A stretch of DNA of 64,000 nt from Commensalibacter melissae (GTDB taxonomy: Bacteria; Pseudomonadota; Alphaproteobacteria; Acetobacterales; Acetobacteraceae). Below are positions 6,425 to 44,867 of the stretch, piece after piece. Location of the stretch: NCBI RefSeq assembly GCF_009734185.1, contig NZ_CP046393.1, positions 1,418,501 through 1,482,500 on the forward strand, written 5' to 3'. Both the position numbers and the translations under genes were made by a program. The notes under the pieces are model-generated. The model ran no database searches and was not told the origin of the DNA. It worked only from the letters and a program-made list of their open reading frames with translations. Each line of letters starts with the position of its first letter. Position 1 is the stretch's first letter.

Positions 6425-6515
6425 TATAATTATTGGTTATTTATCCTGCATGATCATACTTTCGCCGTAAAATTGTACATAATATCATACAGTTAGCTGT
6501 TCAATTCATTCCGAA

Positions 6516-8107: not shown

Positions 8108-8225
8108 CCTAAGATTTTTTAAATTTCCTCAATAATAAAAGCCTTTTATCACCTAATTTTTAAAAGGATCAATCTCGCAAGAAAGGTTAACCCTTTTATG
8201 ATTTAGACAATGAAATCAGTTAATA

Positions 8226-9134
8226 TTAAAAACTATCGTCTCCCCAGCCTCCATCATCATCACCCCAGTCACCACCATCATCAGAGCCCCAATCAGCAGA
8301 ATCTCCAGAATTACCCCAATTTGTATCATTTCCGCTGTTACTGAAACCATCATCAGCATAATTATCAAATCCGGCACCAGAATTGTTACCAGCATCAAAA
8401 TTCGGATCAACTGCGGTACCCTCACCCGTAAAGGGATCACTGCCAGCTGCTGTTCCTGCAAGCGGATCATTCGGATCTGCAGCAGACATTGGTGCAGCAC
8501 CATTAACTGCATGATGGCCACCAAACAATCCACTCAATGCATTATAAGCCATCATACCCCCGGCAACACCAGCTGCCGTTGACAATGCACTGCCTAAAAA
8601 TCCATTTCCACCCCGATTAAACATTCCTCGTTGATAACCTGGGGGATAATTCACAGCCGGAGGTTGTTGCTGTCCATAAGGAGTATTCATAGACTGATTT
8701 GTTTGTGGTTGTGGCCGATTAGGATTTCCTCCCCACCCTGGCGGCATTTGTTGGGATTGAGGCGACATTTGAGTTTGCGACCGGTTTCCGCCACCAAAAA
8801 GCCCTCCCAGAAATCCTCCTGAACGAGGTTGGCTTGATTGGGCCTGAGCCTGTTTCAGCTGTTGAATCTGTTGTTGCATCTGCTGTAATTGCCATTCCAG
8901 CTGACGAATACGATTCTGAGATTCAACCAAGGCGGCTTCCTGAACAATGGCCATTTGTGTCATACGATAACCCGCTTCAGGATATTTCTGCAAATTACTG
9001 TTAATCAGTTGATTGGCTTCAGAATCAATAGGGGGTAACGGACTGGCTGTTCCAACCGTATTTGGAGAAGCTGTTTTTTTCCCACTGACACGTTCAAAAA
9101 ATTGATTGATCAATTGCTGTTCGTCATTATTCAT
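8226..9134 (-). CDS. DUF2076-type periplasmic ligand-binding sensor-like protein
   Basis: A 302-residue protein whose N-terminus (NNDEQQLINQFFERV) and the helical region PEAGYRMTQMAIVQEAALVESQNRI match the DUF2076 family, annotated in proteobacteria as 'periplasmic ligand-binding sensor protein' without a proven role. Seen in order: helical DUF2076 core (1-90), a glutamine-rich coiled coil (LEWQLQQMQQQIQQLKQ), a Gly/Pro/Gln-rich low-complexity middle, a small-residue segment GFLGSALSTAAGVAGGMMAYNALSGLFGG that could be membrane-associated, and an acidic Asp/Trp/Gly tail with DWG repeats ending WGDDSF. No signal peptide is visible. Divergent from glyQ. Function unknown. Confidence 0.7.
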   Translation of the reverse strand: MNNDEQQLINQFFERVSGKKTASPNTVGTASPLPPIDSEANQLINSNLQKYPEAGYRMTQMAIVQEAALVESQNRIRQLEWQLQQMQQQIQQLKQAQAQSSQPRSGGFLGGLFGGGNRSQTQMSPQSQQMPPGWGGNPNRPQPQTNQSMNTPYGQQQPPAVNYPPGYQRGMFNRGGNGFLGSALSTAAGVAGGMMAYNALSGLFGGHHAVNGAAPMSAADPNDPLAGTAAGSDPFTGEGTAVDPNFDAGNNSGAGFDNYADDGFSNSGNDTNWGNSGDSADWGSDDGGDWGDDDGGWGDDSF

Positions 9135-9335
9135 CTTTGATTAACCTTTAAAATTATCTTTGGATTTCTCTTTGTATTTTAATTATAAGACAAATTTTTG
9201 AAGATGATTCACTTTTCTTGTCATATCATCAAGATCGTATTATTTATTTAATCTTATTCGTAACCATCGATAGACTAAAAAATAATTAACACTTATTATT
9301 CGTTATTTTTGCATTCTTTTGGAATTATATAATTC
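9135..9335. promoter_or_regulatory. Divergent intergenic region, DUF2076 gene / glyQ
   Basis: About 200 AT-rich bases between two divergent start codons, so it must contain promoters for both directions. No riboswitch-like fold, tRNA or repeat was recognised here. Confidence 0.4.
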
Positions 9336-10226
9336 ATGCCATCGCATACACCCTTTCAACCAGCTTCAACAAAAAAAACGTTATCATTCCAGGGACTGAT
9401 CTTAAAGTTACATGAATTCTGGAATTCTCAAGGTTGTGCATTATTACAACCTTATGATCTTGAAATCGGCGCGGGAACATTATCACCACACACGACATTA
9501 CGAGCGTTGGGCGACAAACCTTGGAAAGCGGCCTATGTTCAACCCTGTCGGCGTCCAACAGATGGACGATATGGTGAAAACCCCAACCGTTTACAACATT
9601 ATTATCAATATCAGGTTCTACTGAAGCCATCCCCTGAGAATAGTCAGGAACTATTGCTTGAAAGTTATAAAGCCATCGGTATCAATCCAAAAGAGCACGA
9701 TATTCGTTTTGTTGAAGATGACTGGGAAAATCCCACAATTGGCGCGTGGGGACTTGGATGGGAGGTTTGGTGTGACGGTATGGAGGTCACTCAATTCACC
9801 TATTTCCAGCAGGTTGGCGGGATAACAACCTCTATTCCTTCAACTGAACTTACATACGGCCTTGAACGATTGGCCATGTATATTCAGGGCGTTGAGAATG
9901 TCTATGATTTGGCCTTCAATGATCACGGTCTGACCTATGGAGAGGTTTTTCTCAGGGCTGAAAAGGATTATTCCCGTTACAATTTTGAATGTGCAGACAC
10001 GACCCTTTTATTCAATCATTTCAAGGATGCAGAAAAAGAATCCAATGCGTTGGTCCAACAGAAACTTGCTCAGCCAGCCTACGATCAGTGTTTGAAAGCA
10101 AGCCACTTATTCAACCTGCTTGATGCCCGTGGAGTCATCAGCGTGAATGAACGCGCTTCCTATATTGGTCGCATTCGTAATTTGGCAAAACAATGTTGTG
10201 AAACTTGGCTGGCAGAGGAAAAATAA
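9336..10226 (+). CDS. glyQ: Glycine--tRNA ligase alpha subunit
   Basis: GlyQ forms an alpha2-beta2 enzyme with GlyS and carries the aminoacylation active site of the bacterial-type glycyl-tRNA synthetase. The 296-residue protein shows the class II motifs: [40 protein letters not shown] (motif 2) and [18 protein letters not shown] (motif 3). Its length is typical. The stop codon lies one base before the glyS start, and the two form an operon. Confidence 0.97.
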
Positions 10227-10227
10227 T

Positions 10228-12288
10228 ATGTCGGAATTGTTTATTGAACTATTATCGGAAGAAATTCCCGCACGCATGCAAAAGCAAGCCATGGAAAATC
10301 TTAACCGTTTACTGAATAATGCGCTGATCAATCTTAATCCCACTGATGCTAAAACATTCTCCACACCAAGACGTATCGCTGTTTCTATGCAGATTGACGC
10401 TACCATTCCGGCACAAGAGCTGGAGGAAAGAGGACCACGAATTACAGCCCCAGAAAAAGCGTTAGAGGGTTTTTTACGCAAACATGCGGCTCAAAAAAAA
10501 GATTTGATTGAAGAGAACGGTTTTTGGGTTTTGAAAAAAATTAAGCCTGAACAATCAGCCAGCCAATTTATTCAAGAAAAAATTCCGCAACTTTTATGGC
10601 AATTCCCCTGGCCTAAATCACAGCGTTGGGGAAATGGCAGCCAATTTACATGGGTTCGCCCATTGCATCGCATCACCTGTATTCTAAATGGTGAGGTTGT
10701 TCCTTTTACCTTGGCAAAAGAAAATGATGATGCGCATGGATTATCCAGCGATCAAATCACTGAAGGCCATCGTTTTCTTTTTCCTTCCCCCTTTACCATC
10801 CACAATACAAAACAATGGCAGGAAACATTGTTTTCCCATTATGTTATTGCCGATTCTGAACAGCGTCGCAATAAAATTCTTGCAGACATATCCAAGCTTG
10901 CAGAAAATAACAAACTTCAACTCGTTTCTGATGAAGGACTTTTAAACGAAGTTACGGGACTTGTTGAATGGCCCGTCGCGTATATGGGTAAAATTGATTC
11001 CATTTTCATGGATTTGCCACAAGAAGTAATGCAAGTTTCAATGCGAGTGAATCAACGTTATTTTGCACTGAAAAATCAAGATGGCTCACCAGCAGCACGT
11101 TTTATTTTTATAGCGAATATTAGACCAGACGATGATGGTTCCTTAATCATTGCCGGAAATGAGCGTGTTTTGAGGGCACGTTTTGCCGATGCCCGTTATT
11201 TTTGGGAACAGGACCGTAAAACACAACTTGTATCATATAACAACTCATTAAATGATGTTATTTTTCATGCCAGACTCGGCAGCCAATACGAACGTGTGCA
11301 ACGTATTGTCAAAGTTGCAGGCTTTCTTGCAAACGAACTTTGCGCCGATGTGGTTCATGCACAACGTGCTGCTTTACTTTGCAAGGCTGATCTTGCAACA
11401 GGAATGGTTGGTGAATTCCCGGAACTCCAAGGTATTATGGGGGGATATTATGCTCAACATGATAACGAAAATCCTGCCGTAGCACTTGCAATCAAGGAAC
11501 ATTACAAACCTTGTGGTCCAAAAGACCAGACACCCACTGAATCATGCTCTGTTATCGTTGCACTCGCGGATAAAATCGATTTGCTAACCGCATTTTTTGC
11601 CATAGGTGAAAAACCCAAAGGATCTGGTGATCCTTTTGCATTAAGACGGGCTGCCTTGGGGATTATCAGAATCATCCGTGAAAACAATCTCTCTCTTGAT
11701 TTAGAAAAAGTATTTGAATTCTCCATTTCAACACTTCCGAAAGATTTACAACAAGCTTCAGATCTGAAATTTTTGGCAAATTTCATGAATGAACGACTTA
11801 TTATTCAGTTACGAAGTGAGGGTTTACGACATGATATTTTATCAGCAGTTTCACAAAAAAATCATTTAACTGATATTTCCGAACTTCTTAAAAAAGTTAA
11901 TGCCATAAATCAAATTCTTGAATCATCCGAAGGAAAAAATCTTCTGGCCGCTGTCAAAAGAGCAAGCAACATTCTCAGAATTGAAAACAAGAAAGACGGC
12001 CCTCATCACGGTGAACCCGATCCGTCTCTTTTCCATACTGATGAAGAAACAAATCTGTACAGTCATTTAAAGCAAGCTACACAAATGATTGAATCAGCAC
12101 TTGATCATAAGAAGTTTGAATTTGCAATGAATACTATAGCTTCCTTACGCTCTGAACTGGACATCTTTTTTGATAAAACTATTATTAATGATCCAAATGA
12201 AATCATTCGTCATAATCGACTTAAACTTCTCAATCAAATTGATAATGTGGCTAACCTTATTGCTGATTTTAGCCAAATTGAAAAATAG
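10228..12288 (+). CDS. glyS: Glycine--tRNA ligase beta subunit
   Basis: The beta subunit binds tRNA-Gly and carries HD-like, B3/B4-like and anticodon-binding domains. The 686-residue protein starts with the typical SELFIELLSEEIPARMQ and contains STPRRIAV, EGHRFLFP, QRYFALKNQDG and GSGDPFALRRAALGIIRII, all standard for GlyS. The start at 10228 is chosen over in-frame 10147 because it follows glyQ by one base, has AGAGGA upstream, and gives the family N-terminus. The next gene converges from the other strand with only five bases between stop codons. Confidence 0.97.
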   Translation: MSELFIELLSEEIPARMQKQAMENLNRLLNNALINLNPTDAKTFSTPRRIAVSMQIDATIPAQELEERGPRITAPEKALEGFLRKHAAQKKDLIEENGFWVLKKIKPEQSASQFIQEKIPQLLWQFPWPKSQRWGNGSQFTWVRPLHRITCILNGEVVPFTLAKENDDAHGLSSDQITEGHRFLFPSPFTIHNTKQWQETLFSHYVIADSEQRRNKILADISKLAENNKLQLVSDEGLLNEVTGLVEWPVAYMGKIDSIFMDLPQEVMQVSMRVNQRYFALKNQDGSPAARFIFIANIRPDDDGSLIIAGNERVLRARFADARYFWEQDRKTQLVSYNNSLNDVIFHARLGSQYERVQRIVKVAGFLANELCADVVHAQRAALLCKADLATGMVGEFPELQGIMGGYYAQHDNENPAVALAIKEHYKPCGPKDQTPTESCSVIVALADKIDLLTAFFAIGEKPKGSGDPFALRRAALGIIRIIRENNLSLDLEKVFEFSISTLPKDLQQASDLKFLANFMNERLIIQLRSEGLRHDILSAVSQKNHLTDISELLKKVNAINQILESSEGKNLLAAVKRASNILRIENKKDGPHHGEPDPSLFHTDEETNLYSHLKQATQMIESALDHKKFEFAMNTIASLRSELDIFFDKTIINDPNEIIRHNRLKLLNQIDNVANLIADFSQIEK

Positions 12289-12293
12289 TTATA

Positions 12294-14819
12294 TTAGATT
12301 TTAGCTGGGTCTGTTAATTCATAAAACAGCTGGGGCTTGACTTTAAAATGAGGTGAATAGGCTGAATCATTTTTATAAACCGCCTTTTCACCCCATTTTT
12401 TTTCCATAAATTCCATTTCATATGTGAAGCGTTCTTGGTGTTCAGGTCTATCATCACTACCTCTTGAATAGCTTTCATGATGAATGGCAATCACATCCAT
12501 GCACATAATAATTCGATAACCTGCCTCTCTTACTTTCAAACATAGATCGACATCGTTATATGCAATTTTTAAATTAATTTCATCAAATCCATCTACCTCA
12601 TGAAAAACTGATGCCTTTACCAACATCATGGCCGCTGTTACTGCAGTCAATTCCTGTGATAATACAGAACGTCCGACATAACCAAAATCATTCTTGATCA
12701 TCCCCCTATTCATATGTTGGGCAACTTCCCCAGGACCAACAATAATGCCTCCATGTTGTATTCTTCCATTCGGATATAACAGTTTGGCTCCCACAATTGC
12801 AATATCATCAGCAAATTCCGCCTCATTCAACATGATTTCCAGCCAATCCTCATTTTCAATAAATACATCATTATTTAAGAATAAATAAAAATCGGATTTT
12901 ATTTTTTGAGCAGCCAGGTTATTCAAACGTGAAAAATTAAATTCTTCTTGTACTGTTAAAAAATTTACAGTCTTTTTTCGTGAATAGTTTTTTATAAACT
13001 CCAGAGTTTCTGGTTTTTTTGACCCATTATCAACCAATAATATATTATAGTGGCTATAATTGGTTTGGTCCAAAATACGGTCAACGCATTTTTTGGTAAT
13101 TTCAATCTGATCTTTGAAAGGGATAATAATTGTAACAGTTGATTGCGGTATCTTATTCCATGCAACCTTATACATCGTAGCATTCTCTATCGAGCTTACC
13201 ATAGTTTCTTGACCCTTACGTTTCAAATGATCACTTACACAGGCTATACCCGCTTTTACCGCATATTGTTTATTGGCGGTTGTTTCCGCTGTTGAATTCG
13301 GAGTAATACGCCAGTGATACAAAATCTCCTGAACATGATGAATTTGCGATGATTTTAAATATTCTGTCAATCGCAAAATAAAATCATGATCCTGTGCACC
13401 ATTATATTGCGATGACAGAAAACCGACTTTTCTAACATAATCAACATGAATCATGACAAAATGACAAATATAATTACACCCTAACAAATAACGGTAATTA
13501 AAATCAGGTTTTAAATTGGGTTCGGTAAATTCACCATTGTTATCAAGCTTATCCTCATCTGAATAAACAAAATAGGCATTATGACACTGCGCCTCCATTA
13601 TCATCATTTCCAATGCTTCAGGAACCAGCAGGTCATCATGATCAAAAAAAGCAATCCATTGACCTTTTACCTGTTTCAATCCTTCATTGGTAGCTTCGGA
13701 AATACCCATATTACATGTCAGTGTAATTGCCTTGATCCTGTTATCATACAAAACATATTTTTTGATTTCTCTCTGTATTGATGCTGATTTTCCTCCATCA
13801 TCAATCAAAATCAATTCCCAATTTTTATAAGTTTGACATAAAACAGAATCAACAGCCTCCCTAAAATGAGATAAATCAGGTTTGTAAACAGGACATATAA
13901 TTGAAATTTTGGGAGATTTAAGTTTTATCTTTAAATCTTTCAAATTTTGTCTTTTTTTATCAAGTAATTTTGGTAAACTCGAGAAATATTTTTGTGCCCA
14001 TAGATGATATTCATCAATTACATATTCCGGATAAGCGATTAAATTTTTAATTTCACTTTTTAGGGAATTAATTTCATTATATAGACTATCTATATGCTGA
14101 TTCATTATTAATAGTTTTTGTTCCAACAAATCATCAACAAGGCTTGTTTGATAGGGGCTGTTTTTCACTTCTATATAATCAGGCATTACATACACGCGAA
14201 ATTCCGCCTTAAAACATTTTCGAAGCACTTTGGGTATAACAACCGCAAAACCGCATCTTGGCTCACCATTATAAGCATTTGCCACATCAGGACGATATCT
14301 ATTGGCCTGAACCATTTGTAATTCAATCCCATTCATGACAACAAGAATTGAACAGTTTCCTATATATTCTCCTGTTTTCAAATCCTTTTTCAAAACCCAT
14401 CCAACAATTGAACCATTCTTCCATCCATCAATAAAAGATTCATATTCAACAGAATCGTTATTTCTTAATAATTGAAAATATACATAGGATACTTGCTTAT
14501 TATTCTGTTTTGAATCAGAGATTATAAAAGGTGTTTCATCAATAAATTGAAATGATAGTTTATGCTTCTTATTATCCCTGTATCTTTCTGGTATGGAAAA
14601 TTGAAAACCGATATCGCCGCGAAAGAAATTCAGCTTTTGCTGGAGAGTTTTATTTTCAATATCGCATTTAATTTCAGAAATCTTTACATCATCGATAAAA
14701 GCAGAAACAATTGTAGGTTTTTCAGGTTTAACTACGTTAATTGCCCATCCCACAAATACTCCCTCTTCAACTCTTTGACAGAAACCCGTACAGCGAGATT
14801 GAGCATTCATGAACCCCAT
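12294..14819 (-). CDS. Large two-domain GT2 glycosyltransferase with duplicated N-terminal module
   Basis: An 841-residue protein predicted to add sugars to a cell-surface polysaccharide or LPS on the cytosolic face. Residues about 15-200 hold two related modules: GWAINV...GFQFSIP (24-77) and GWVLKK...GFAVVIP (140-196). A short coiled coil follows (about 232-260). The first GT2 domain starts near 304 (ISIICPVYKPD, with FFDHDDLLVP); the second near 560 (TVTIIIPFKDQ, with LFLNNDVFIE and CLKVREAGYR). Each keeps an Asp-rich motif, so both may be active. It stands alone, convergent with glyS and downstream of infC's terminator. The acceptor is unknown. Confidence 0.85.
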   Translation of the reverse strand: MGFMNAQSRCTGFCQRVEEGVFVGWAINVVKPEKPTIVSAFIDDVKISEIKCDIENKTLQQKLNFFRGDIGFQFSIPERYRDNKKHKLSFQFIDETPFIISDSKQNNKQVSYVYFQLLRNNDSVEYESFIDGWKNGSIVGWVLKKDLKTGEYIGNCSILVVMNGIELQMVQANRYRPDVANAYNGEPRCGFAVVIPKVLRKCFKAEFRVYVMPDYIEVKNSPYQTSLVDDLLEQKLLIMNQHIDSLYNEINSLKSEIKNLIAYPEYVIDEYHLWAQKYFSSLPKLLDKKRQNLKDLKIKLKSPKISIICPVYKPDLSHFREAVDSVLCQTYKNWELILIDDGGKSASIQREIKKYVLYDNRIKAITLTCNMGISEATNEGLKQVKGQWIAFFDHDDLLVPEALEMMIMEAQCHNAYFVYSDEDKLDNNGEFTEPNLKPDFNYRYLLGCNYICHFVMIHVDYVRKVGFLSSQYNGAQDHDFILRLTEYLKSSQIHHVQEILYHWRITPNSTAETTANKQYAVKAGIACVSDHLKRKGQETMVSSIENATMYKVAWNKIPQSTVTIIIPFKDQIEITKKCVDRILDQTNYSHYNILLVDNGSKKPETLEFIKNYSRKKTVNFLTVQEEFNFSRLNNLAAQKIKSDFYLFLNNDVFIENEDWLEIMLNEAEFADDIAIVGAKLLYPNGRIQHGGIIVGPGEVAQHMNRGMIKNDFGYVGRSVLSQELTAVTAAMMLVKASVFHEVDGFDEINLKIAYNDVDLCLKVREAGYRIIMCMDVIAIHHESYSRGSDDRPEHQERFTYEMEFMEKKWGEKAVYKNDSAYSPHFKVKPQLFYELTDPAKI

Positions 14820-34619: not shown

Positions 34620-35297
34620 ATGTCTATTTTACATTCAATCCGAACAAATATTAGTAAACCGCACAAAGCTGGATATCCTTTTCTCTGCATCTCTGCTTTG
34701 ATAAGTTTTATTGGCTATCGCATTCATGCTCGGATCGGACATTTAATTGGTCTTATAGGAAGCTTATTTTTTGGGTTTTGCTGGTATTTTTTTCGTAATC
34801 CCAAGCGAATTATCCCCCATAAAAATGATATTCTTATTTCCCCAGCAGATGGAACTGTTTCAGCCATAAACTATATTCCCCCTCCTGTTGATTTAGGTTT
34901 GGGTGACAAACCGGTCTGGCGCATTTCTATTTTTCTTTCCATTTTCAACGTCCACTTACAACGCATCCCTGTCGCTGGAAAAATTACCGCACGATCATAT
35001 ATCAAGGGAAAATTTTTTAACGCTTCGCTGGATAAAGCATCAGAACATAATGAACGCAACGCAATTTGCATAACTTTACCAGATGGAAAAAAGGTGGTTG
35101 TTGTTCAGATTGCCGGATTGATTGCCAGAAGAATTGTATGTAATGCCGATATAAATCAACAATTTAATATGGGTGATATTTATGGGTTGATCCGATTTGG
35201 CTCCAGAGTGGATCTTTACCTGCCCGATGGGTGTCAACCCTGCATTGAGGTTGGGCAAACAATGATCGGCGGCGAAACGATTGTTGCAAAATTATAA
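34620..35297 (+). CDS. psd: Phosphatidylserine decarboxylase proenzyme
   Basis: Psd converts phosphatidylserine to phosphatidylethanolamine. At 225 residues it is the short form usual in alphaproteobacteria. Two N-terminal membrane helices precede ISPADGTVSAINY, FLSIFNVHLQRIPV and the self-cleavage site in IRFGSRVDLYLP, where Gly-Ser is cut to form the pyruvoyl cofactor. The start ATG at 34620 has AAGG upstream. It is followed closely by pssA, which makes its substrate. Confidence 0.93.
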   Translation: MSILHSIRTNISKPHKAGYPFLCISALISFIGYRIHARIGHLIGLIGSLFFGFCWYFFRNPKRIIPHKNDILISPADGTVSAINYIPPPVDLGLGDKPVWRISIFLSIFNVHLQRIPVAGKITARSYIKGKFFNASLDKASEHNERNAICITLPDGKKVVVVQIAGLIARRIVCNADINQQFNMGDIYGLIRFGSRVDLYLPDGCQPCIEVGQTMIGGETIVAKL

Positions 35298-35325
35298 ACG
35301 CTCTTTTAACCCAGAACATAAATTA

Positions 35326-36150
35326 ATGTTACGACAAAAAATTCGTCCCCGAGTCAAGGGAATTTCCTTTAATCGGATTATTCCAAACTTATTGACAATT
35401 CTTGGATTGTGTGCCGGTCTGATCAGTATTCGCAGTGCAATTCATGGAAGGTTCAATGAGGCTGTTATCGCCATATTAATTGCTGCCTGTTTTGACGGGT
35501 TGGATGGGCGAATTGCCCGTTTATTACGTGGTACAAGTCGATTTGGTGCAGAATTGGACAGCCTTGTCGATTTTTTGTCCTTCGGGGTTGCTCCAAGTCT
35601 TGTCTTATATTTATGGTCCCTTAAAAATGGAGGGGATTATTCTTTTATTCCCTGTGCAATATTTACGGTATGCATGGCTTTACGTCTGGCACGGTTTAAT
35701 GCCGCACTTGATGATAACAAGCCTCAATATGCCAGCAATTTTTTTACGGGTGTCCCTGCCCCGGCAGGTGCTGGAATAGTTTTATTTCCTGTTTTTCTTG
35801 GCTTGGAAAGCAAGCATTATCAAATTGATTTTCTTAATTCCATCGCCCATTCCGAAATCCTGACAATTACAATTTTAGTCATAACATCTTTTTTGCTGAT
35901 TTCTACCTTACCGATCTGGTCATTCAAAAATTTTAAAATTCCCACACCTTACGTCATGCCTATATTTTTAAGCACCTGCATCTTCGCAACTATTTTGGTA
36001 GCAGATCCTTGGGGAACCTTGGCTTTAAGCGGGATTTTATATCTGAGTCTAATTCCGCTGAGTTATCGCAGTTACCATCGTCTAAAAGCTGATGCCCAGA
36101 CAATTCTTGTGAAGACGAAAAAGGGGGAGGACTTTTTGAATAAAAATTAG
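35326..36150 (+). CDS. pssA: CDP-diacylglycerol--serine O-phosphatidyltransferase
   Basis: PssA makes phosphatidylserine from CDP-diacylglycerol and serine in the inner membrane. The CDP-alcohol phosphotransferase motif is complete (DGLDGRIARLLRGTSRFGAELDSLVDF, covering D-G-x2-A-R-x8-G-x3-D-x3-D). About eight membrane helices follow IIPNLLTILGLCAG. I chose ATG at 35326 because it gives the usual short N-terminus; TTG at 35281, inside psd, is the alternative. The last 161 bases of this gene are overlapped by the 3' part of the convergent HyfI-like gene, an unusual arrangement. Confidence 0.92.
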   Translation: MLRQKIRPRVKGISFNRIIPNLLTILGLCAGLISIRSAIHGRFNEAVIAILIAACFDGLDGRIARLLRGTSRFGAELDSLVDFLSFGVAPSLVLYLWSLKNGGDYSFIPCAIFTVCMALRLARFNAALDDNKPQYASNFFTGVPAPAGAGIVLFPVFLGLESKHYQIDFLNSIAHSEILTITILVITSFLLISTLPIWSFKNFKIPTPYVMPIFLSTCIFATILVADPWGTLALSGILYLSLIPLSYRSYHRLKADAQTILVKTKKGEDFLNKN

Positions 36151-36616
36151 AAGACGTATTCCGTTTCAATTTCATTAAACAATCCATAATTGTGGAAGGT
36201 AAAGGCGGACATCCTTCAATTTGCAAAATACATTCCTCGTCACCAACATTTTCACCCAAGATCGCATAATTACTTGCAAAAATATGTCGGTTAATTGCAC
36301 ATGATCCAATTGTTACAATCGCTTTTGATTTAGAAATCAATTTCCAGCTTTTTTCAATATAAGGAAGCATAGCACGAGTAATCAGCCCTGATATTAACAA
36401 CAAGTCTGCATCAGCAGGATGTCCAACAAATTTTATCCCCGCATCTTTTATATCATATGCGGTCCCGTTTAAGGCCTGCAGTTCAAACGTGCATCCATTA
36501 CAGTCTCCGCATCCAATATGAAATACATGCATATCCTGTTTTTTTTGACCGGCAAATTTTTGAACAGGTTTTATTTTTCCAGTTAATGAATCGATTAACG
36601 ATTTAATAAAAACCAC
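35990..36616 (-). CDS. HyfI/NuoB-like small Fe-S subunit
   Basis: A 208-residue homologue of the small subunit of hydrogenase-4-type complexes and of NuoB. Four cluster-binding cysteines are visible in the usual places: GDCNGC (Cys39, Cys42), IGSCA (Cys106) and EGCPPLP (Cys136), so a proximal/N2-type 4Fe-4S cluster is likely. The family domain ends near residue 150; the remaining tail (about 55 residues, Ser/Asp/Lys-rich) is encoded antisense to the end of pssA and looks unconserved. GTG start at 36616 with AAAGGAAA upstream. Last gene of the six-gene cluster. Proteins of this type pass electrons toward the large subunit at the membrane face. Confidence 0.82.
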   Translation of the reverse strand: MVFIKSLIDSLTGKIKPVQKFAGQKKQDMHVFHIGCGDCNGCTFELQALNGTAYDIKDAGIKFVGHPADADLLLISGLITRAMLPYIEKSWKLISKSKAIVTIGSCAINRHIFASNYAILGENVGDEECILQIEGCPPLPSTIMDCLMKLKRNTSSNFYSKSPPPFSSSQELSGHQLLDDGNCDNSAELDSDIKSRLKPRFPKDLLPK

Positions 36617-36627: not shown

Positions 36628-38160
36628 TTATAGATCTACGCCTGTTACCAAATGACCAAATGACGCCTTTATCAATACATGATTATCAAAATGTTCATTT
36701 TTTAATACATCTTGCAAGACATAGGCCTGATTGGCACCAGGATCACGTATAAATACGTCTTTTATAACCCCCGCTTCTAGTCTCACATAATACCATAAAT
36801 CCCCTTGTACCCCTTCACAAACACCAACCCCTTCCCCATTTAATTTTTCAATAATAATTTCTTGAGAGGATTTGAACGCTTCCTCATTATTTTCTTCCCT
36901 TAGAAGTATATCAATTATATTTAACGATGTTTTTATTTCAACAAACCATAATTGCATACGTGCATCAACATCCCCTTTTGTAAAATTCGGAGGTGGCAGC
37001 CATTCCAATCGGTATTCAGACATATACCGACGCAAATCCACATCCCGTCCGGAAGCCCGCCCAACAATTCCACCTATATTGAAATCAATTGCTTTTTTTA
37101 AAGATAAAATTCCCATATTTTGAAGATAGTCACCCAGGCCAGGCAAGGTTATAGCCAAATTAAATGCCTGATCAATCAAATATTTAATTTTTTTAGGAAA
37201 ATGTCTTTTTTTATCATTTTCTTGCCCTAAAAAAACAGCACCAGGAAAAACACAATCCATTAACCAGCGATGCCCAAAATAATGTATATTCCAACGCATA
37301 AGGAGTTCACGCGCCAGATCACACCGGCTGGCAACCAACTCTACTTCTAACACGCGAAATAAACGTGTTAAATAAAGTAGATAGGCTGCAATTCTGGATA
37401 ATTCAGAATATAAGATACGTTTTCTCAAAACAGGCAAGGAAGGGACAAAATTTGCAATATCTTCAATCGCATGAGAAAAGGCAATCTGATGCGCAACGGA
37501 ATCAAGTGCGTTAATACGGCTTATTAAAGGTAATATTTCCAAACTATTTCTATTATACAGATTGGATAGAATTCCTCTATGCGTATATCCGTACACTGAT
37601 TCAGCTCGGATAATCCGCTCACCCATATTAAGAAAACGCCACAGCACAGGCAATTTTTCTGTCGCATTGGAGGGATCAATAACCGTTATCTCCCCTCCAT
37701 TATTCAGTAAATGAGAGACAGATGGATTTTCTTGTCTTTCTGGAGGCCATAAGACAGGCCCTGGTTTTTCTGACAATGGCCAGCAGTTATTCCATAAACC
37801 CCGATCCAACCATGGGCGTAAATCAACAGCATTCATTGCTTCCTTACCCCATAACTCCCAGATCATTCTTTCATATATAATGGCAGCGGGTCTTACAGAA
37901 GACAAGGCCAGATAACGGTTCATTGATGCGGAAATACGAACGCCAATGGGCTTGTATCCATTCTCAAGAAATAAAACAAAAACAGTATCCCCCTTACACC
38001 ACATCGTTAGGAACATAAGCCGATCAGTTTTTAATGCTGCAAGCATCTCCGTCCATTCTTGTTCATCAAGAGAAATGAAAAACCTACTATCTGTTTGATG
38101 ATTTTTAAGACAATCTATTAATTTTAGGGAACGCTGAACAAATGTTTTTTTATCAACCAT
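36628..38160 (-). CDS. HyfG-like large subunit (NuoC-NuoD fusion type) without NiFe ligands
   Basis: A 510-residue protein with an N-terminal NuoC-like part (about 15-140) and a C-terminal NuoD/hydrogenase-large-subunit part. Family signs: RAESVYGYTHRGI (185-197), the region RINALDSVAHQIAFSHAIE (215-233), FNIGGIVGRASGRDVDLRR, and EGVQGDLWYYVRLEAGVIKDVFIRDPG. In true NiFe hydrogenases the region at 215 would carry a C-x2-C pair and the C-terminus another in DPCxxC; here both sites lack cysteine (the end is FGHLVTGVDL). A NiFe centre is therefore impossible. It may work like NuoD or like the energy-converting-hydrogenase-related (Ehr) proteins. Eleven bases before the HyfI-like gene. Confidence 0.82.
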   Translation of the reverse strand: MVDKKTFVQRSLKLIDCLKNHQTDSRFFISLDEQEWTEMLAALKTDRLMFLTMWCKGDTVFVLFLENGYKPIGVRISASMNRYLALSSVRPAAIIYERMIWELWGKEAMNAVDLRPWLDRGLWNNCWPLSEKPGPVLWPPERQENPSVSHLLNNGGEITVIDPSNATEKLPVLWRFLNMGERIIRAESVYGYTHRGILSNLYNRNSLEILPLISRINALDSVAHQIAFSHAIEDIANFVPSLPVLRKRILYSELSRIAAYLLYLTRLFRVLEVELVASRCDLARELLMRWNIHYFGHRWLMDCVFPGAVFLGQENDKKRHFPKKIKYLIDQAFNLAITLPGLGDYLQNMGILSLKKAIDFNIGGIVGRASGRDVDLRRYMSEYRLEWLPPPNFTKGDVDARMQLWFVEIKTSLNIIDILLREENNEEAFKSSQEIIIEKLNGEGVGVCEGVQGDLWYYVRLEAGVIKDVFIRDPGANQAYVLQDVLKNEHFDNHVLIKASFGHLVTGVDL

Positions 38161-38173: not shown

Positions 38174-39487
38174 TCACTTTTGTATAAACTGCATTGCAAT
38201 TTGAAATAGCCAATATTTGGCAATGATAGGAATAACCAAAGAGGGTAAAAAAATCAGGCTCAATAAACATCCACCCTCTTTTGTAAAAATATTTCGAGAA
38301 AATAATTGAATATTATTTTTTTTAAACAGAAAAAACCCTCTTACAAAAAACAATAAAAACAAGCATGATCCCAACCAGGGAAACTGTGCAAACAAACTCG
38401 CAATCAAAATTGCACATGCAAAAAATATGCCAAATGGCGGAAATGCAGATATGGCAATGACAAACCAACCTCTAGAATCCACAGCAAAAGGACTTTTTCG
38501 AAGAATATACCCTAACGGTGCATAAATAACCAGAACGGTTATGAAAAGGCAAAAACTGTATAAACCCTGAAATTCATTGGAAAAAATACCAGCCAAAGCT
38601 GCCAAAATAGTGATCAAAAACGGGGAATACAAAAAAGGATCATCATTCTCCTTTATAATAATGATAATGAAACTGATCAACCCTAATATCATGAGAAATG
38701 ATTGAGGGTTTTGATAAGATGAGATTTGAAATAATCTTATGAATAAGGAGAGAAAAGCAACTGGGATGATAAAAAAGATAATACTGCCAATTAAAGTGGG
38801 CAAATGATTGACAAAACGTAGAAAAGTAATGAATACGGGAAACAACCCGATCATTTGAACAATACTAAACGCCAAGATAAAACTGCCAAAACGGGGTAAC
38901 AAGGGATAGGTTTGTCCAACAGATAACTCAAGAATGAAAACACCCATCAAAGCCATTATCATAAAAAAAAGCATATAGCGGAAGTATTCCCAGGCCGCCT
39001 GTATCTGTTCTCCCCCACCATGAATAAAACAAGCCAAAAAAGACAGGAAAATCATGCTATGCAAACAAATCTGCGCTATAAAAAAATTATTAATAGCTAC
39101 AGCCATCATGGCGGTACAGATAATTAATTGATAGAGGCCGAGACTATAGGATAATTTTTTTTGCTTTCCAGATGAACTTAATTGGCCAGGAACCATGAAT
39201 TTCAAAACTATTGATGCAATAATGCTACCTATAGCGATCATAACCCTTAAAAAACTTGTTAACTCGTCATGTTTCCAAATAACGGAAAGATAAAAATCAT
39301 CATGAATAAATGCCGATGCAACCGTAATAAAAAAAAGGATTATTGTTACAATAAAATGACATCGGATTTTTGCACGCTGATGATGACAGGCATAAATTCC
39401 TATGATTCCTGCCACGGGCCAGAGAACACAACTCCAATACAAAATTTTTGCTAAATCACCATTTCCGAACACAGTCAACCTGTCCAA
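38174..39487 (-). CDS. HyfF-like antiporter-type membrane subunit (degenerate)
   Basis: A 437-residue, very hydrophobic protein with about 12-14 predicted helices, at the gene position and of roughly the size of HyfF/NuoN/MrpD proteins. The region FILAFSIVQMIGLFPVFITFLRFVNHLPTLIGS aligns in order with the channel motif of the family, but the lysine, histidine and tryptophan of the normal G-x-K-x-G-x-x-PFH-x-WLP pattern are absent, and the helix-5 glutamate is not apparent. Proton pumping by the standard route is therefore doubtful. Its 5' end overlaps the HyfE-like gene by 32 bases. Confidence 0.72.
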   Translation of the reverse strand: MDRLTVFGNGDLAKILYWSCVLWPVAGIIGIYACHHQRAKIRCHFIVTIILFFITVASAFIHDDFYLSVIWKHDELTSFLRVMIAIGSIIASIVLKFMVPGQLSSSGKQKKLSYSLGLYQLIICTAMMAVAINNFFIAQICLHSMIFLSFLACFIHGGGEQIQAAWEYFRYMLFFMIMALMGVFILELSVGQTYPLLPRFGSFILAFSIVQMIGLFPVFITFLRFVNHLPTLIGSIIFFIIPVAFLSLFIRLFQISSYQNPQSFLMILGLISFIIIIIKENDDPFLYSPFLITILAALAGIFSNEFQGLYSFCLFITVLVIYAPLGYILRKSPFAVDSRGWFVIAISAFPPFGIFFACAILIASLFAQFPWLGSCLFLLFFVRGFFLFKKNNIQLFSRNIFTKEGGCLLSLIFLPSLVIPIIAKYWLFQIAMQFIQK

Positions 39488-40007
39488 AACGTTGCATGAT
39501 AAAAATAGAAGCTAGCAAAAACACAACATAAAAAGCAAAAAGAGTAAAAAATGCATAGAATTGACTATTCAATCCAACGACAAGGGTTAAAGCATTCAAT
39601 ACACATAGCATACCAGCAATTTGTCCTCCGATTGCTTGACTGCTCATGCTATAAAATACCCCAACCAGAATTATAGATAAAACTATTCCATATTCCAAGC
39701 GGAACAATGAAGGCGGCAATACATGGACAACAAGGGAAACAGCAAGAATGGTCAAGAATAATCCTGTAAATAAGGTTTTCAAAGTATACTGGAAATATTG
39801 TCCTTTCAAAATGACCGTAAAAAAAATTGCCACAATGAAAAGCATAAAAAAACTCAATAACGTAATTTTACTGTTAAGTGCATTCTGCCAACCAGATAAA
39901 AGACAGCATCCCGTCAGTATAGAATGAATAACTGCCTGTAACGAAGACGAGGAAATGCCGCTTATCGTAATCAGTAATAGCAGACTCATAAAAAAGGCAA
40001 ATACCAT
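39456..40007 (-). CDS. HyfE-like membrane subunit
   Basis: A 183-residue protein with about six hydrophobic helices. Position (between HyfC-like and HyfF-like genes) and the segment GGQIAGMLCVLNALTLVVGL match HyfE, whose family normally has a Leu-Glu-Asn-Gly motif here related to NuoK. In this protein the glutamate position holds leucine (VLNA), removing a residue thought to be in the proton path. Overlaps the next gene and starts one base after the previous one. Confidence 0.7.
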   Translation of the reverse strand: MVFAFFMSLLLLITISGISSSSLQAVIHSILTGCCLLSGWQNALNSKITLLSFFMLFIVAIFFTVILKGQYFQYTLKTLFTGLFLTILAVSLVVHVLPPSLFRLEYGIVLSIILVGVFYSMSSQAIGGQIAGMLCVLNALTLVVGLNSQFYAFFTLFAFYVVFLLASIFIMQRFGQVDCVRKW

Positions 40008-40008: not shown

Positions 40009-40959
40009 CTATATTCCGCCTAAACCTGCAAAATAAATGACAACGGCCACAAAATTCAATACTGTTGCGATACCAATTTTGTAATAACCCTTGGACAAAA
40101 ATAAGAAATTTCTCATTATAGAAATTACAATACATTCTATGACAATTTTACTACTCCATGCCAATAATCCAAAAAAAGCGGTTAACAACCAATACATCAA
40201 GGATTTTGTCTGTAAATCAAAGATGGCAATACTCTGGGGCCATATTAAAAACGCAATCAGGGATAGCCAGATCAGAAACTGGAGACTGGAAATATAAAAC
40301 AAGATTGCCTTCTCGTCTCCATCAAACCCATCTTTCTCAATAAAATTCAAAAAATCCGGTATATCTAAAACAAGAAAAAATAGAGAACATGCACATATAA
40401 AAAGAGGGCATAGGGCCAAATTTATCAAACTTGTGGAATTATGAAAAAAAAGGACAATATGCGAAAGCTCTGTACTTTTTGTATTTAAACGGCAAACCAT
40501 AGCGATCAGTAAAATTGCAGGAATATACATGAAGGTTTGGAACATAATCCGCTGCGAATTTTTGAAACATAACAGTGAGCAATCTTGAAAAACAAGAAAA
40601 AATATCAAAAAAGGTACAAATATTAACAATATCGTAACAAAGATAAAATCGGAATTATTGTTAACCAGGGTATTTGTTGAAAATATCGGAATAGATATTG
40701 CCACAGTTACTAATAATCCAATAGTTATTAAATAAATCAGGGTATTGACAGACAATATTTTTTTAAAAAGAAAATTTAAAATTCGTGAATATATAATTTT
40801 GATATTTTGTAATACATATTGGGATGATTCCAAAGGTTTTCCCTGAATTTTTCCATTCAACCTTTCCATAAACACCATAATTAAAGGTGCCATACCTAAA
40901 ATCAATAATACATGAAATAGGATCATTAATAGGGACATCAGCCAATACAGAAATATCAT
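40009..40959 (-). CDS. HyfC/NuoH-like membrane subunit
   Basis: A 316-residue membrane protein with about eight helices. GMAPLIMVFMERLNGKIQGKPLESSQYVLQNIKIIY corresponds to the first loop of HyfC/NuoH proteins, which joins the soluble arm to the membrane arm. The later FIEKDGFDGDEKAILFYISSLQFLIW fits the loop with conserved acidic residues. Its ATG overlaps the stop of the HyfB-like gene by four bases (ATGA). Confidence 0.75.
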   Translation of the reverse strand: MIFLYWLMSLLMILFHVLLILGMAPLIMVFMERLNGKIQGKPLESSQYVLQNIKIIYSRILNFLFKKILSVNTLIYLITIGLLVTVAISIPIFSTNTLVNNNSDFIFVTILLIFVPFLIFFLVFQDCSLLCFKNSQRIMFQTFMYIPAILLIAMVCRLNTKSTELSHIVLFFHNSTSLINLALCPLFICACSLFFLVLDIPDFLNFIEKDGFDGDEKAILFYISSLQFLIWLSLIAFLIWPQSIAIFDLQTKSLMYWLLTAFFGLLAWSSKIVIECIVISIMRNFLFLSKGYYKIGIATVLNFVAVVIYFAGLGGI

Positions 40960-42827
40960 CTAACAAAAAATCCTATTAATAACAAAGAGATAATAATTAT
41001 AGATATAAAAACTTTCTGCTCATTTTCCCAAATCAATAAATTAAAATAATTTCTATAATTAGAAAAGCAACGATAAAATTTTACACTTTCTACATATCCT
41101 TTACGTTTTATAACCAAATATTTTTTAAAAAGTAAAATATCAGCCAATGTATAGATGAATGTTTTTTCACCAAAACCGAAACTGGTTTTATCAACATGAC
41201 CCTCATAGACACCCTGTTCTGAAACAACATATTTTTTTGTTTGATTTATCAACGCTTTAAATTTAATTTTCTCTTTCACAAGATAAAATAAACCCGCCAA
41301 GATTAATAAATATATCATTGGAAAAACAGGGGAAAACGAAAATTGCAATTCATCATTTTTGAATGCAAACCAGTATAATTTTTCCGTGTGAATTAGATTT
41401 TTTTTTATTGGATAGATTAGAAACGATATTATTCCCGGGCAAAAGGACAAAAGAAATAGACCGGATAAATAAATCCTGATCCCTTTTCCTTTTTTTTGTA
41501 AAAAATTAAATGATAATTTTGACGATAGATTAAATTGATGCCGATTTTTTTTATAAAGATTTATAAGTAAGTTGATCCATCCCAGAACCAAAAAAAGAAA
41601 AATAACAGAATTACATCCTATAAAAAATAATGCAAATATCATATTAAATAAATAATGACTGAATATGACATTCATGCCTAGTTGCAAATTCCCCCATAAC
41701 AGCGTAAATCCGGGAAATGGAGGAAAACCAGACAACAACATTGCGAGGCAAAAAAAGGTACAAATTGAAAGTGCCGTATTGATTTGTCTTTTCAAAAAAG
41801 ATGTTAATAGAAAAGCCAGTGCAAATCCTAAATTCTGAATTAGTAATCCAAAGAAAAGAAAATCATACGTCAAAGACAGTATGGCTAATTTTTGAAAATG
41901 AATTGAAAATAAAAGGATGCAAACAAGCTCAAGCCATAATGCATTGCTCAAAGAATATAAATATCGTAACCGATCGTATACAGTTACACTTTTTAAACTG
42001 GACCAACCCAAACGCAATGCAGATGTTAAGCCTAGAAATCCAGTAAATAAAATCAAGATAAGGGAAAATTTGTAATCATTAACACTGATGATAAATCTTA
42101 ATAATACATAAAATCCAATCAAGCTTTTTAAACAAATCAAATAGAAAGAAATATCACCAATTCTATTAAGTTTCTCATCAGATTTTTCGTTATGAAAAAA
42201 ATCAAATAATCCAAGCAGAAAACATATAGGCAAAAGTGATAAAAAAAACAGACAATCTATATTATTGGATTGCATAATCCTAGAAAAATCAATATCTTTT
42301 GGACTAAACTGGTTATCACTCATAACAGGTAAAAAGCTCATGACCCCCAACAAACATGCAAAAACAATCCAATAAACCAAATTTTTCTTCTGATCTGCCT
42401 GATAAATAATCAATAAAACCAATGATAAAAGAAAAATCAGAAAAAAGAAATTTCCTGCAACAAAAAAGGATATGGCGATAATATTTAAAAAGAGGAAATA
42501 GCAATTTTTAGACAACAACGGTTGATAATATAAGAATAAAAAGGCAGTCGTAAACAACAACAAAAGGAAAAAACAAGATAGCCCATCTAAATAGAAACTG
42601 ATTTTATATACGTCACTTAGAATAAAAGGATAAAATGATAATGGGTCGGAATGAAATACCAGTGCAAGAAAGGCAAGAAAAGCCCCAGTGATAGATCCAT
42701 AAAGTGGAAAACTAAAAAATAACTTAGGAAAGTAATATCTTTCAGATTTTATAAACCCAACGTTAACAAGATAGAGTATACTTGTTTGATAAAACAATAA
42801 AACGATTCCTAATATGATCAAACACAA
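40956..42827 (-). CDS. HyfB/NuoL-like antiporter-type membrane subunit (divergent)
   Basis: A 623-residue protein with about 16 helices, first gene of the cluster. The opening layout (helices, then KISFYLDGLSCFFLLLLFTTAFLF) matches HyfB/NuoL, where F-x-x-D-x-x-S is the usual signature. The region corresponding to the channel motif keeps a lysine (LICLKSLIGFYVLLRF) but the preceding PLHxWLPxAHP block is replaced by LFDFFHNEKSDEKLN. SGFPPFPGFTLLWG near residue 370 is a well-preserved piece. The C-terminal region (FGEKTFIYTLADILL) resembles the HyfB/NuoL end. Strong A/T bias. Confidence 0.75.
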   Translation of the reverse strand: MCLIILGIVLLFYQTSILYLVNVGFIKSERYYFPKLFFSFPLYGSITGAFLAFLALVFHSDPLSFYPFILSDVYKISFYLDGLSCFFLLLLFTTAFLFLYYQPLLSKNCYFLFLNIIAISFFVAGNFFFLIFLLSLVLLIIYQADQKKNLVYWIVFACLLGVMSFLPVMSDNQFSPKDIDFSRIMQSNNIDCLFFLSLLPICFLLGLFDFFHNEKSDEKLNRIGDISFYLICLKSLIGFYVLLRFIISVNDYKFSLILILFTGFLGLTSALRLGWSSLKSVTVYDRLRYLYSLSNALWLELVCILLFSIHFQKLAILSLTYDFLFFGLLIQNLGFALAFLLTSFLKRQINTALSICTFFCLAMLLSGFPPFPGFTLLWGNLQLGMNVIFSHYLFNMIFALFFIGCNSVIFLFLVLGWINLLINLYKKNRHQFNLSSKLSFNFLQKKGKGIRIYLSGLFLLSFCPGIISFLIYPIKKNLIHTEKLYWFAFKNDELQFSFSPVFPMIYLLILAGLFYLVKEKIKFKALINQTKKYVVSEQGVYEGHVDKTSFGFGEKTFIYTLADILLFKKYLVIKRKGYVESVKFYRCFSNYRNYFNLLIWENEQKVFISIIIISLLLIGFFVR

Positions 42828-42923: not shown

Positions 42924-43379
42924 TCAACCTTTTTCCCACCCTTTTTCTGTTTGTTTCCAATAAGTCAAATCATGCCCAGCCTTTTTCAGTTTACGCCACC
43001 GTTCACGAGCCGCCAATACAAACTGTTCCTCTTTTCCATCAAATAAATCAAACACCCGTTCAAATTGACTGATATCATTCACTGATTGACCATGAACAAC
43101 AAACAGATAGGCTGCCTGATTTGGATTTTCCTCAAAAGTCGTCAACCAAATTGGTTGCCATTCAGGATATTCATCCCGATAGTCTTTTGCATGACAACCA
43201 TGTGGTAACCAAATAGGGTTTATAATATTCCATAAAATCTCTGTCAGTTTTTTCAACTGTTCATCATCCTTGCATAGAACAATCCCTTTTTGTTTTTGTT
43301 GTCTTGTGCGTATCAGCAAAGAGGGAAGCGCCTGCTCCATACTTGTTCGGGTCAAATGATAAAAACCAACAGAGGTCAT
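42924..43379 (-). CDS. holC: DNA polymerase III subunit chi
   Basis: HolC links the clamp loader to single-strand-binding protein. The 151-residue protein starts TSVGFYHLTRTSMEQALPSLL and contains LWNIINPIWLPHGC, PIWLTTFEENPNQA and FERVFDLFDGKEEQFVLAARERW, all typical. Directly downstream of pepA on the same strand (nine bases), the arrangement seen across proteobacteria. Confidence 0.92.
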   Translation of the reverse strand: MTSVGFYHLTRTSMEQALPSLLIRTRQQKQKGIVLCKDDEQLKKLTEILWNIINPIWLPHGCHAKDYRDEYPEWQPIWLTTFEENPNQAAYLFVVHGQSVNDISQFERVFDLFDGKEEQFVLAARERWRKLKKAGHDLTYWKQTEKGWEKG

Positions 43380-43388: not shown

Positions 43389-44867
43389 TTATTTTTCGTA
43401 ATAAGTTTCAACAAAATGGTTTAACAGATTTACACCGAAAGCTGTCGCCCCTTTTGGACCGCAATAATTGGGTTTTGCCGTGTAGGCTGTTCCGGCGATA
43501 TCCAAATGAGCCCATGGAGTATCATTAACGAATCGTTTTAAAAATTGTGCGGCGGTAATGGATCCTCCATCACGCCCACCAATATTTTTCATATCCGCAA
43601 AGTCAGAATTGATCGCTCTATCATAAGCATCGCCCATTGGCATACGCCATAATTTTTCTCCGGAATCATGACCGGTTGTCGACAATTTACCTGCTAGTTC
43701 ATCATCATTTGAAAAAAGACCGGCATATTCATATCCAAGTGCAACAACCATGGCTCCGGTTAATGTTGCAAGATTGACCATGAAACGCGGTTTGAAACGA
43801 TCCTGCGTATACCAAAGTAAATCTGCCAGTACCAATCGTCCCTCTGCATCCGTATTCAGAACCTCGATTGTCTGTCCAGAGGCACTGCGAACTATATCTC
43901 CGGGACGTTGTGCATGACCAGATACCATGTTTTCAACCAGACCTACAACACCAATGACATTCACCTTGGCTTTACGCTTGGCCAGAACAGACATCAATCC
44001 TGTTACAGTCGCGGCGCCAGCCATATCCATTTTCATGTCTTCCATGCCATTCGCTGGTTTTAAGGAAATCCCTCCGGAATCGAAAGTGACACCCTTTCCA
44101 AGAAAGGCGAGAGGCGGATCTTTATCATCAGGATTTCCTTTCCATTGCATTACAACCGTATAAGGTTCGTTGTTACTACCTTGAGCCACACCCAAAAGAG
44201 CACCAAAACCTAATTCTTGCATTTTCTCTTTATTGATTACTTCAACCGTCAAACCCAATGATTCAAGTTTTTTGATACGATTTACAAATTCGGCAGGATT
44301 TAACTGATTAGCGGGTTCATTAACAAGATCCCTGGTCAAATAAACCCCGTCAGCCACCGCAGACAAGCCCGTCCATTGTTTTTGCGCCCCTTCATAGTCA
44401 GAAGCCATAATTTTTATCGCTTTTAATTGCCTGAATTCATCTTTTTTACTTTTATCAAGGCAATATTTTTTAAATTCATAATTTTTCAAAACGGCGCCTA
44501 AAACAAGATACCCCGCATATTCCGTGAAATCCCAGTCCGCCATAATATGAAAAGATTCCACTTTCCTTTGCAAGGCCTGAAGCGCAATTCCACCTGCTTC
44601 TTTGGCTTTACTGACGGAAAACTTATCCTTCACTCCCAGACCAACGACCAAGATATAATCATGATTTTCATCAGGAGAAACAAGTTTGCAAACCTGTCCA
44701 AACTTACCCGTATAATTATCTGCCTTCATCGCCCGATCCAGGGCATTATAAATAATCTTATTAATAACCTTTACAGAATCACCACCCTCATCATTCTCAA
44801 ACGAGAATAACACAATATTACCTTTTTCTGGTTTATGCAGGTTCGTAAACTGAATATCGAGTGTCAC
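43389..44867 (-). CDS. pepA: Leucyl aminopeptidase (M17 family)
   Basis: A cytosolic, two-metal aminopeptidase that removes N-terminal residues from peptides. The 492-residue protein has the metal-binding core GKGVTFDSGGISLKP, MKMDMAGAATVTG and the family signature NTDAEGRLVLADLL. The N-terminal domain is normal in length. PepA can also bind DNA in E. coli (Xer recombination, carAB regulation); whether this one does is unknown. Upstream gene of holC. Confidence 0.95.
   Translation of the reverse strand: MTLDIQFTNLHKPEKGNIVLFSFENDEGGDSVKVINKIIYNALDRAMKADNYTGKFGQVCKLVSPDENHDYILVVGLGVKDKFSVSKAKEAGGIALQALQRKVESFHIMADWDFTEYAGYLVLGAVLKNYEFKKYCLDKSKKDEFRQLKAIKIMASDYEGAQKQWTGLSAVADGVYLTRDLVNEPANQLNPAEFVNRIKKLESLGLTVEVINKEKMQELGFGALLGVAQGSNNEPYTVVMQWKGNPDDKDPPLAFLGKGVTFDSGGISLKPANGMEDMKMDMAGAATVTGLMSVLAKRKAKVNVIGVVGLVENMVSGHAQRPGDIVRSASGQTIEVLNTDAEGRLVLADLLWYTQDRFKPRFMVNLATLTGAMVVALGYEYAGLFSNDDELAGKLSTTGHDSGEKLWRMPMGDAYDRAINSDFADMKNIGGRDGGSITAAQFLKRFVNDTPWAHLDIAGTAYTAKPNYCGPKGATAFGVNLLNHFVETYYEK

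Follow-up and report, generated by a model that had tools for sequence, protein, structure and literature searches.

Introduction

Energy-converting hydrogenase-related (Ehr) complexes are described, in the accessible parts of the published accounts, as relatives of the group 4 hydrogenases without NiFe-coordinating residues or CxxC motifs, and their function is given there as unknown or as suspected charge translocation (PMC6349859, PMC10284858, PMC7894505). For the E. coli formate hydrogenlyase (FHL), the available portion of the structural paper assigns roles and numbers to the proton-path residues of HycC and HycD (PMC9474812), and that numbering is used below for the membrane subunits. 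In the Acetobacteraceae, the accessible text of Degli Esposti and others (PMC10715153) describes bc1 and COX1 proteins that are free of metal ligands. How the chemistry of the pocket is coupled to ion movement in the complex I superfamily is a long-standing question.

Here, we analyzed a six-gene operon in a 64,000-nucleotide stretch of the Commensalibacter melissae genome, referred to as the window, after an earlier note had pointed to a hydrogenase-type large subunit in it without NiFe-binding cysteines. Our literature search, which covered titles and abstract openings and mostly excluded subscription papers, found no account of such an operon, whether for acetic acid bacteria, for Rhizobiales, or for Commensalibacter.

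Results

A six-gene operon with diverged membrane subunits

The operon lies on the minus strand and reads B-C-E-F-G-I. It encodes an antiporter-like, HyfB/HycC-like protein (B, 40956..42827), a HyfC/HycD/NuoH-like anchor (C, 40009..40959), a protein that is HyfE-like by position (E, 39456..40007), a second antiporter-like protein resembling HyfF (F, 38174..39487), a HycE/HyfG/NuoCD-like large subunit (G, 36628..38160; 510 aa, ATG start), and a HyfI/NuoB-like small subunit (I, 35990..36616). The plus strand across 36628-38160 is crowded with stops, and G reads on the minus strand. All seven congeners share the gene order and have six intact frames each. The immediate upstream neighbor is holC (42924..43379, minus), with pepA beyond it (43389-44867), and both were present within the 16-17 kb examined at 7/7 same-genus loci. 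The earlier note had called the operon complete; this holds for the six intact genes, but not for a HyfH/NuoI-like ferredoxin, as the motif C-x2-C-x2-C-x3-C/P was found neither in the six frames of window positions 26001-50000 nor in 20 related loci. A promoter and terminator scan gave no signal above shuffled sequences.

Pfam matches of the window B, C, E, and F proteins were at chance level only (E 0.17 to 6), whereas the relative L041 gave clear Proton_antipo_M and NADHdh matches. When aligned with hhalign to profiles of the parent family, that is, the wider NiFe-free family described below, the window-genus B, C, and F proteins nevertheless reached probabilities of 94.8, 99.1, and 94.6%, respectively, over nearly their full length; E stayed at 0.2% and is assigned by its position. 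For a set from acetic-acid-bacteria-like genomes, homology to the parent held up for C (96.9%) but not for B (12.7%), E, or F (0.1%), and its F scored 87.2% against the window-genus F. Mismatched controls from this set gave 0.3% (C versus parent F) and 0.1% (F versus parent C).

Two observations concern the surroundings. The 3′ end of I overlaps by 161 bases (35990-36150) a convergent plus-strand ORF (35281-36150), which we take to be PssA-like, and the end of I within this overlap shows little conservation. The same genome also carries another antiporter-like gene (a 519 aa frame; G000:C1:1366857-1367867), apart from both nuo and the operon.

The large subunit has neither NiFe ligands nor the residues of a quinone pocket

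The homology of G to the large subunits of hydrogenases and complex I is well above chance. Its sole Pfam match was PF00346 (complex I 49 kDa; E 6.3e-12), and among the NCBIfam models only NuoD-type ones matched, all below their cut-offs. A phmmer search of the PDB with G gave Mbh alpha as the best hit (6cfw_L, 3.9e-12), while a family profile built from 34 proteins (the window protein and 33 of 80 named loci) was closest among solved chains to HycE of formate hydrogenlyase (7z0s_E, 2.4e-82).

The motifs quoted for G in the earlier note were all found in place: THRG at residues 193-196 (37573..37584, minus), RINALDS at 215-221 (37498..37518, minus; coordinates computed from the ORF), IAFSHAIE at 226-233, EGVQGDLWYYVR at 449-460, and the C-terminal FGHLVTGVDL at 501-510 (36631..36660, minus). 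RINALDS occupies the first C-x2-C site and FGHLVTGVDL the second, and alignment to E. coli HyfG placed N, D, L, and G in the four cysteine columns, in agreement with the claim that G lacks NiFe cysteines. The same four letters recur in the window and 7/7 congeners, which excludes a sequencing error as the cause. Nor did conserved cysteines turn up in the active-site columns across the family: in 100 family proteins aligned to HyfG, cysteine occupied 0/400 cells. These proteins comprised the window protein, 7 from the same genus, 12 other relatives, and the 80 named loci; at least three of the latter (L045, L087, and L090) repeat contigs of the 12 relatives.

The note had also suggested looking for a quinone-type pocket as in NuoD. 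In the window and 7/7 congeners, the canopy Arg is replaced by Gln (Q452 in the window, aligned with HycE R478; 36805..36807, minus), the canopy Asp/Asn by Gly, which lies within the C-terminal motif, and the His of the β1-β2 loop by N, S, or C. The NuoD of the separate complex I that the same genome carries reads K, D, and H at the canopy and loop positions. Because canopy Arg, canopy Asp/Asn, and loop His are gone together with the E-channel and antiporter residues of the partner subunits (see below), a NuoD-like quinone pocket in the window G is unlikely.

Other parts of the protein are conserved. Fifty-four columns of G hold one residue in at least 87% of the 31 fast-clade proteins, including H194-R195-G196 (His in 31/31), R215, E253, R298, R368, D375, R377, R401, E408, E449, G453, and S500, together with further columns in the N-terminal, NuoC-like part.

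The NiFe cysteines were lost in the ancestor of a large family

We therefore looked at the wider family, represented by 80 named loci out of at least 306 relatives. Their ligand columns read S, S/T/A, S/A, and G, with S first in 80/80 and G last in 80/80, and the canopy Arg is present in 80/80. Among 19 extra loci (L125-L143), a lone cysteine occurred only in L127 and L134, never paired, and among 29 further loci only in L170. The latter (genome G272) is a parent-family relative from outside the class, with its lone cysteine in the first ligand column. As a positive control, L144, from a genome of the same bacterial family (G049), aligned as C,C,C,C. Judging from these columns, the NiFe cysteines were evidently lost in the ancestor of a large family and not in the window gene itself. 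The operon at the control locus (5402-12407) is genuinely Hyf/FHL-like: it encodes all four NiFe cysteines, includes a HyfH-sized gene, and sits in a genome of 1.9 Mb. It stands apart from the other relatives examined.

That a site for NiFe, or for some other metal, was rebuilt from different residues would be in keeping with the strictly kept letters of the parent ligand columns, which indicate that the parent pocket is not free to vary. We consider such a site extremely improbable for the window, where the columns read N, D, L, and G and the canopy residues are Q and G, and HypD (PF01924) was not found in the genome; of the 40 genomes searched for it, this one included, a single genome (G021) was positive.

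The parent family is spread through the Alphaproteobacteria. Among the matches listed were Roseomonas, Azospirillum, Bradyrhizobium, Mesorhizobium, Rhodopseudomonas, Hyphomicrobium, and others, and copies were also found on Rhizobium and Azospirillum plasmids. In the bacterial family of the window, 224/248 genomes matched at E <= 1e-60 (a by-eye count that includes G049 with its true Hyf), and in its phylum 59/299 genomes matched at E <= 1e-50, a number that may include true Hyf. The neighbors of the parent operons (10 proteins from six loci) revealed no common theme, being Tex, MazG, CHAD, PhyH, transporters, malate synthase, and others. In a Hyphomicrobium MAG (L105, 2314-4323), an additional antiporter-like gene lies directly upstream of B.

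The warning that automatic annotation as hydrogenase would mislead applies to this parent family: in Bradyrhizobium L107, B and F pass the NCBIfam cut-offs as 'hydrogenase 4 subunit B/F', and the large subunit has no cysteines in the ligand columns. It does not apply to the window, for whose genes no hydrogenase model reaches its NCBIfam cut-off.

The ion path is missing from the membrane subunits

In B, the residues corresponding to HycC K239, E294, H328, H332, K336, and E391 are kept in 8/8 parent operons and in 0/8 of the window genus (the window and seven congeners). The same holds for HycD R108, E138, E189, and E206 in C, whose acidic E-channel loop is deleted in the window genus, and F has likewise lost its channel E, K, and H; HycD E201 and E199 are absent in the parent operons also.

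We next compared charged columns, defined as sharing one charged residue across at least 90% of the eight parent proteins plus Hyf, with other conserved columns. The window genus keeps 20/144 cells of the charged columns in B, 11/128 in C, 1/40 in E, and 21/120 in F, versus 115/496, 88/224, 49/176, and 143/432 of the other conserved columns. The uncharged columns are thus also largely lost; general divergence is high in this genus, and the contrast is modest. On these counts, L040 (genome G013) is the better witness for a selective loss of charged residues, as it sits near the base of the fast clade and is still easily aligned. It keeps 36/62 uncharged columns in B, 20/28 in C, and 32/54 in F, versus 7/18, 8/16, and 3/15 of the charged ones. 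K239, E294, K336, and E391 are gone from its B and E294, K336, and E391 from its F, and H328 is present in both. An alignment-free count of buried charges gave 5-9 for window-genus B versus 10-17 for parent B; the ranges overlap in F and C, and the measure is noisy. New proton paths through other residues are conceivable in the window lineage.

To extend the comparison, we added 18 operons and scored 47 loci against a profile built from parent operons alone; 30 had a B match, and 17 had none and went unscored. The ion path is kept in 13 of the 30, five of which were in the profile. In these channel-kept operons, K336 and E391 of B, K336 and E391 of F, and R108, E138, E189, and E206 of C are each present in 13/13; one B lacks K239, E294 of F is replaced by Q or K in two, and H328 of F by Q in five. 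Among the B proteins of the other 17 of these 30, the channel-lost operons, K239, K336, and E391 do not occur, and E294 occurs once, in the weak alignment of L128. In the eight channel-lost operons with a true F match, K336 is found in 0/8 and E391 in 2/8 (L196 and L205), with L196 keeping both His; three of eleven initial F matches (L125, L197, and L204) were left out of the F counts since they are the B protein. The alignment is uncertain for the weakest labeled members, L126, L128, L132, and L133 (B 64-133 bits).

The pocket and the ion path disappear together

A pocket triad of the large subunit, H188-R478-N529, is complete in 15/15 channel-kept rows and 0/24 channel-lost rows. Single residues of it survive in the latter, namely Arg in 11/24, His188 in 1/24 (L125), and Asn529 in 1/24 (L205). 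We placed the kept/lost labels on an IQ-TREE quick tree (87 proteins), where they require three changes, a number that holds if starred branches alone are counted: one at G085, one at G227, and one for a large clade of the window genus with the acetic-acid-bacteria-like genomes. We read the three changes as three losses of pocket and ion path. Independent pairs agreed with joint loss in 3/3 cases for H188 and 2/3 for N529 (sign test p 0.25, three pairs being too few to reach significance).

These results bear on whether the operon encodes an ordinary Ehr complex, in which a redox reaction at G still drives pumping by the membrane arm and the window copy is merely fast-evolving. The family placement and operon layout fit the Ehr complexes as far as they are described in the accessible parts of PMC6349859 and PMC7894505, the six genes are intact and selected, and the cluster ligands of I are kept. 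However, the published ion-path residues are missing from B and C in the window and 7/7 congeners, the charged columns went first in L040 while others stayed, and the pocket triad is complete in none of the channel-lost rows. We regard an ordinary Ehr complex as distinctly unlikely here.

We also asked whether an intact second membrane arm elsewhere in the genome could explain the losses, and rejected the idea: the best B-type match reached at most 377 bits in eight genomes (G085, G227, G013, G109, G117, G224, G217, and G103), compared with 643-974 bits in G134, G018, and G256. Two of the latter are worth recording. G256 carries a full-scoring and a channel-lost copy (C49, C34) in one genome, a natural within-cell comparison. 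In G018, the pocket is intact and no membrane genes adjoin G; its B lies at another locus.

The small subunit keeps its cluster ligands, and the operon is under purifying selection

The window I protein matches PF01058 (E 1e-19) and carries C39, C42, C106, and C136, the ligands of a proximal 4Fe-4S site. It reads GDCNGC, the hydrogenase-type C-x2-C and not the adjacent CC of cluster N2 in complex I (PMC9474812). All four cysteines are kept in the window and its 7 congeners and likewise in 10 other loci. When the four ligand columns were counted by profile alignment in 52 further rows, some of which are shared with the earlier motif count, 48/52 read C,C,C,C (46/50 without the repeats L175 and L176). 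The exceptions are L182 (G008) with three of the four and L125, L189, and L190 (genus g97) with one of the four. In genus g97 (G103, G146, and G179; 3/3 genomes), three of the four cysteines are replaced and the reading frames are intact.

We considered and rejected the idea that acetic-acid-bacteria-like genomes have lost the small subunit, as I does not follow G in seven loci but was found elsewhere in 7/7 of them, and a whole-genome search found it in 20/20 genomes. In G052, G and I share a contig and are ~4 kb apart.

The complex might instead be a leftover with no catalysis of its own, kept for structure or regulation, that stabilizes or regulates another membrane complex. Such a role has a proposed precedent in the deranged bc1 complex of Acetobacteraceae, according to the accessible part of PMC10715153, and genus g97 retains the genes with three of the four cluster ligands lost. 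A role tied to complex I was rejected. G and I persist in 10 of the 20 genomes searched, spanning four genera with seven of the ten in one genus, that have no PF00146 match, and the G-I pair thus does not serve complex I in general. Moreover, all four I ligands survive in 10/10 channel-lost operons (L192-L209) and in 6/7 genomes with I away from G, a survival that is hard to explain without a redox use. We judge a leftover of this kind to be unlikely.

Selection was assessed by dN/dS, with values obtained from 7 of 28 pairs. In the closest congener pair (L026/L027), dN/dS was 0.09 for B, 0.06 for C, 0.04 for E, 0.06 for F, 0.05 for G, and 0.10 for I, with 0.03 and 0.02 for the neighbors holC and pepA. 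Between the window and its nearest congener, L023, the values were 0.30, 0.16, 0.17, 0.20, 0.10, and 0.27 in the same order, with 0.14 for holC and 0.07 for pepA; dS was 1.1-2.0 here, near saturation. The six operon genes are under purifying selection, in line with the earlier claim that the loss of the NiFe site is not simple decay.

Slow decay, with a pseudogene-like operon disappearing from a reduced genome, might be suggested by the low-GC, 1.96 Mb genome of the window by the fast divergence of the membrane subunits, and by dN/dS values of up to 0.30 against the nearest congener. It is very improbable given six intact frames in the window and seven congeners, the range of 0.04-0.10 in the closest pair, the matches at E <= 1e-60 in 224 of the 248 family genomes, and the occurrence of the same channel-lost state in genomes of 4.6-6.4 Mb (G085, G227, G013, and G109).

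Discussion

A candidate role as a membrane-anchored one-cluster module

The explanation that we favor, by a modest measure, is that the window operon encodes an uncoupled Ehr derivative: a NiFe-free, six-subunit membrane module with one iron-sulfur cluster that would neither produce H2 nor pump. B-C-E-F would now serve mainly as a membrane anchor, and G as a scaffold that may keep I, with its single 4Fe-4S cluster, at the membrane. This cluster could take electrons directly from a soluble partner and, at the surface of the membrane, either pass on single electrons or sense redox state. The complex would thus carry out neither H2 chemistry nor quinone reduction of the complex I type, nor would it pump ions; all three are unlikely because the NiFe site, the canopy pair, the loop His, and the E-channel are absent. 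One-electron transfer or redox sensing is proposed since I, docked to G, appears to carry the sole surviving cofactor site, its 4Fe-4S cluster. This proposal is the weakest part of the mechanism, as genus g97 appears to manage without most of the ligands, and a redox role may not be general because both g97 and G008 have lost I ligands.

More broadly, the Acetobacteraceae may have taken a complex I-like machine that was free of NiFe and presumably pumped, and turned it repeatedly into a one-cluster module that is anchored in the membrane and does not pump, with pocket and ion path lost together; from the alignments and tree at hand, this generalization falls just short of probable. Selection on an operon stripped of these residues suggests that such machines can be retained for purposes besides pumping. 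If the repeated conversion in the Acetobacteraceae is real, the resulting uncoupled complexes would show that the Ehr pocket and ion path act as a single functional unit, and that the G-I core left behind is under selection for a function of its own in redox chemistry or sensing. Should pocket and ion path have gone as a unit on at least three occasions, sister complexes such as those of G134 (kept) and G085 (lost) would be natural coupled and uncoupled pairs. A set of alphaproteobacterial 'hydrogenase 4' annotations, such as those of L107 B and F, describes no hydrogenase, and some relatives are probably no pump either.

Comparison with known systems

The parent family matches the Ehr complexes as they are described in print. 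As in the accessible accounts of Ehr (PMC7894505, PMC10284858, PMC6349859), a group 4-like large subunit without NiFe ligands is paired with a small subunit, and NuoL-like and HyfE-like membrane subunits are encoded alongside, E being assigned by position only. The window lineage departs from the Ehr complexes in those accounts by its loss of the ion-path residues and the pocket triad, both of which the parent family keeps. The earlier placement with Ehr-type proteins, and not with NiFe hydrogenases, is upheld by description, but the window G is not a typical Ehr protein.

With E. coli Hyf/Hyc (hydrogenase 4/FHL), the operon shares the B-C-E-F-G-I order, the family of the large subunit, and a C-x2-C small subunit. 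It differs in having six genes versus hyfA-J and in lacking the NiFe cysteines, a ferredoxin motif at the locus, HypD, and the E-channel. With complex I (NuoB, NuoCD, NuoH, and NuoL/M/N), it shares NuoD-like core matches and, by descent, antiporter-like subunits; unlike complex I, it has neither the canopy Lys/Arg and Asp nor the loop His, and its I protein lacks the CC of cluster N2.

The deranged bc1 and COX1 proteins offer a parallel from the same bacterial family. Hyf has 0 occurrences in the accessible text of PMC10715153, which names hydrogenase once, as type 1 hydrogenase. As described in that text, a respiratory complex has been retained there after the loss of its metal ligands, as it has here; in contrast to the deranged complexes, the operon described here belongs to a lineage in which pocket and ion path were both lost, with at least three such changes on the tree.
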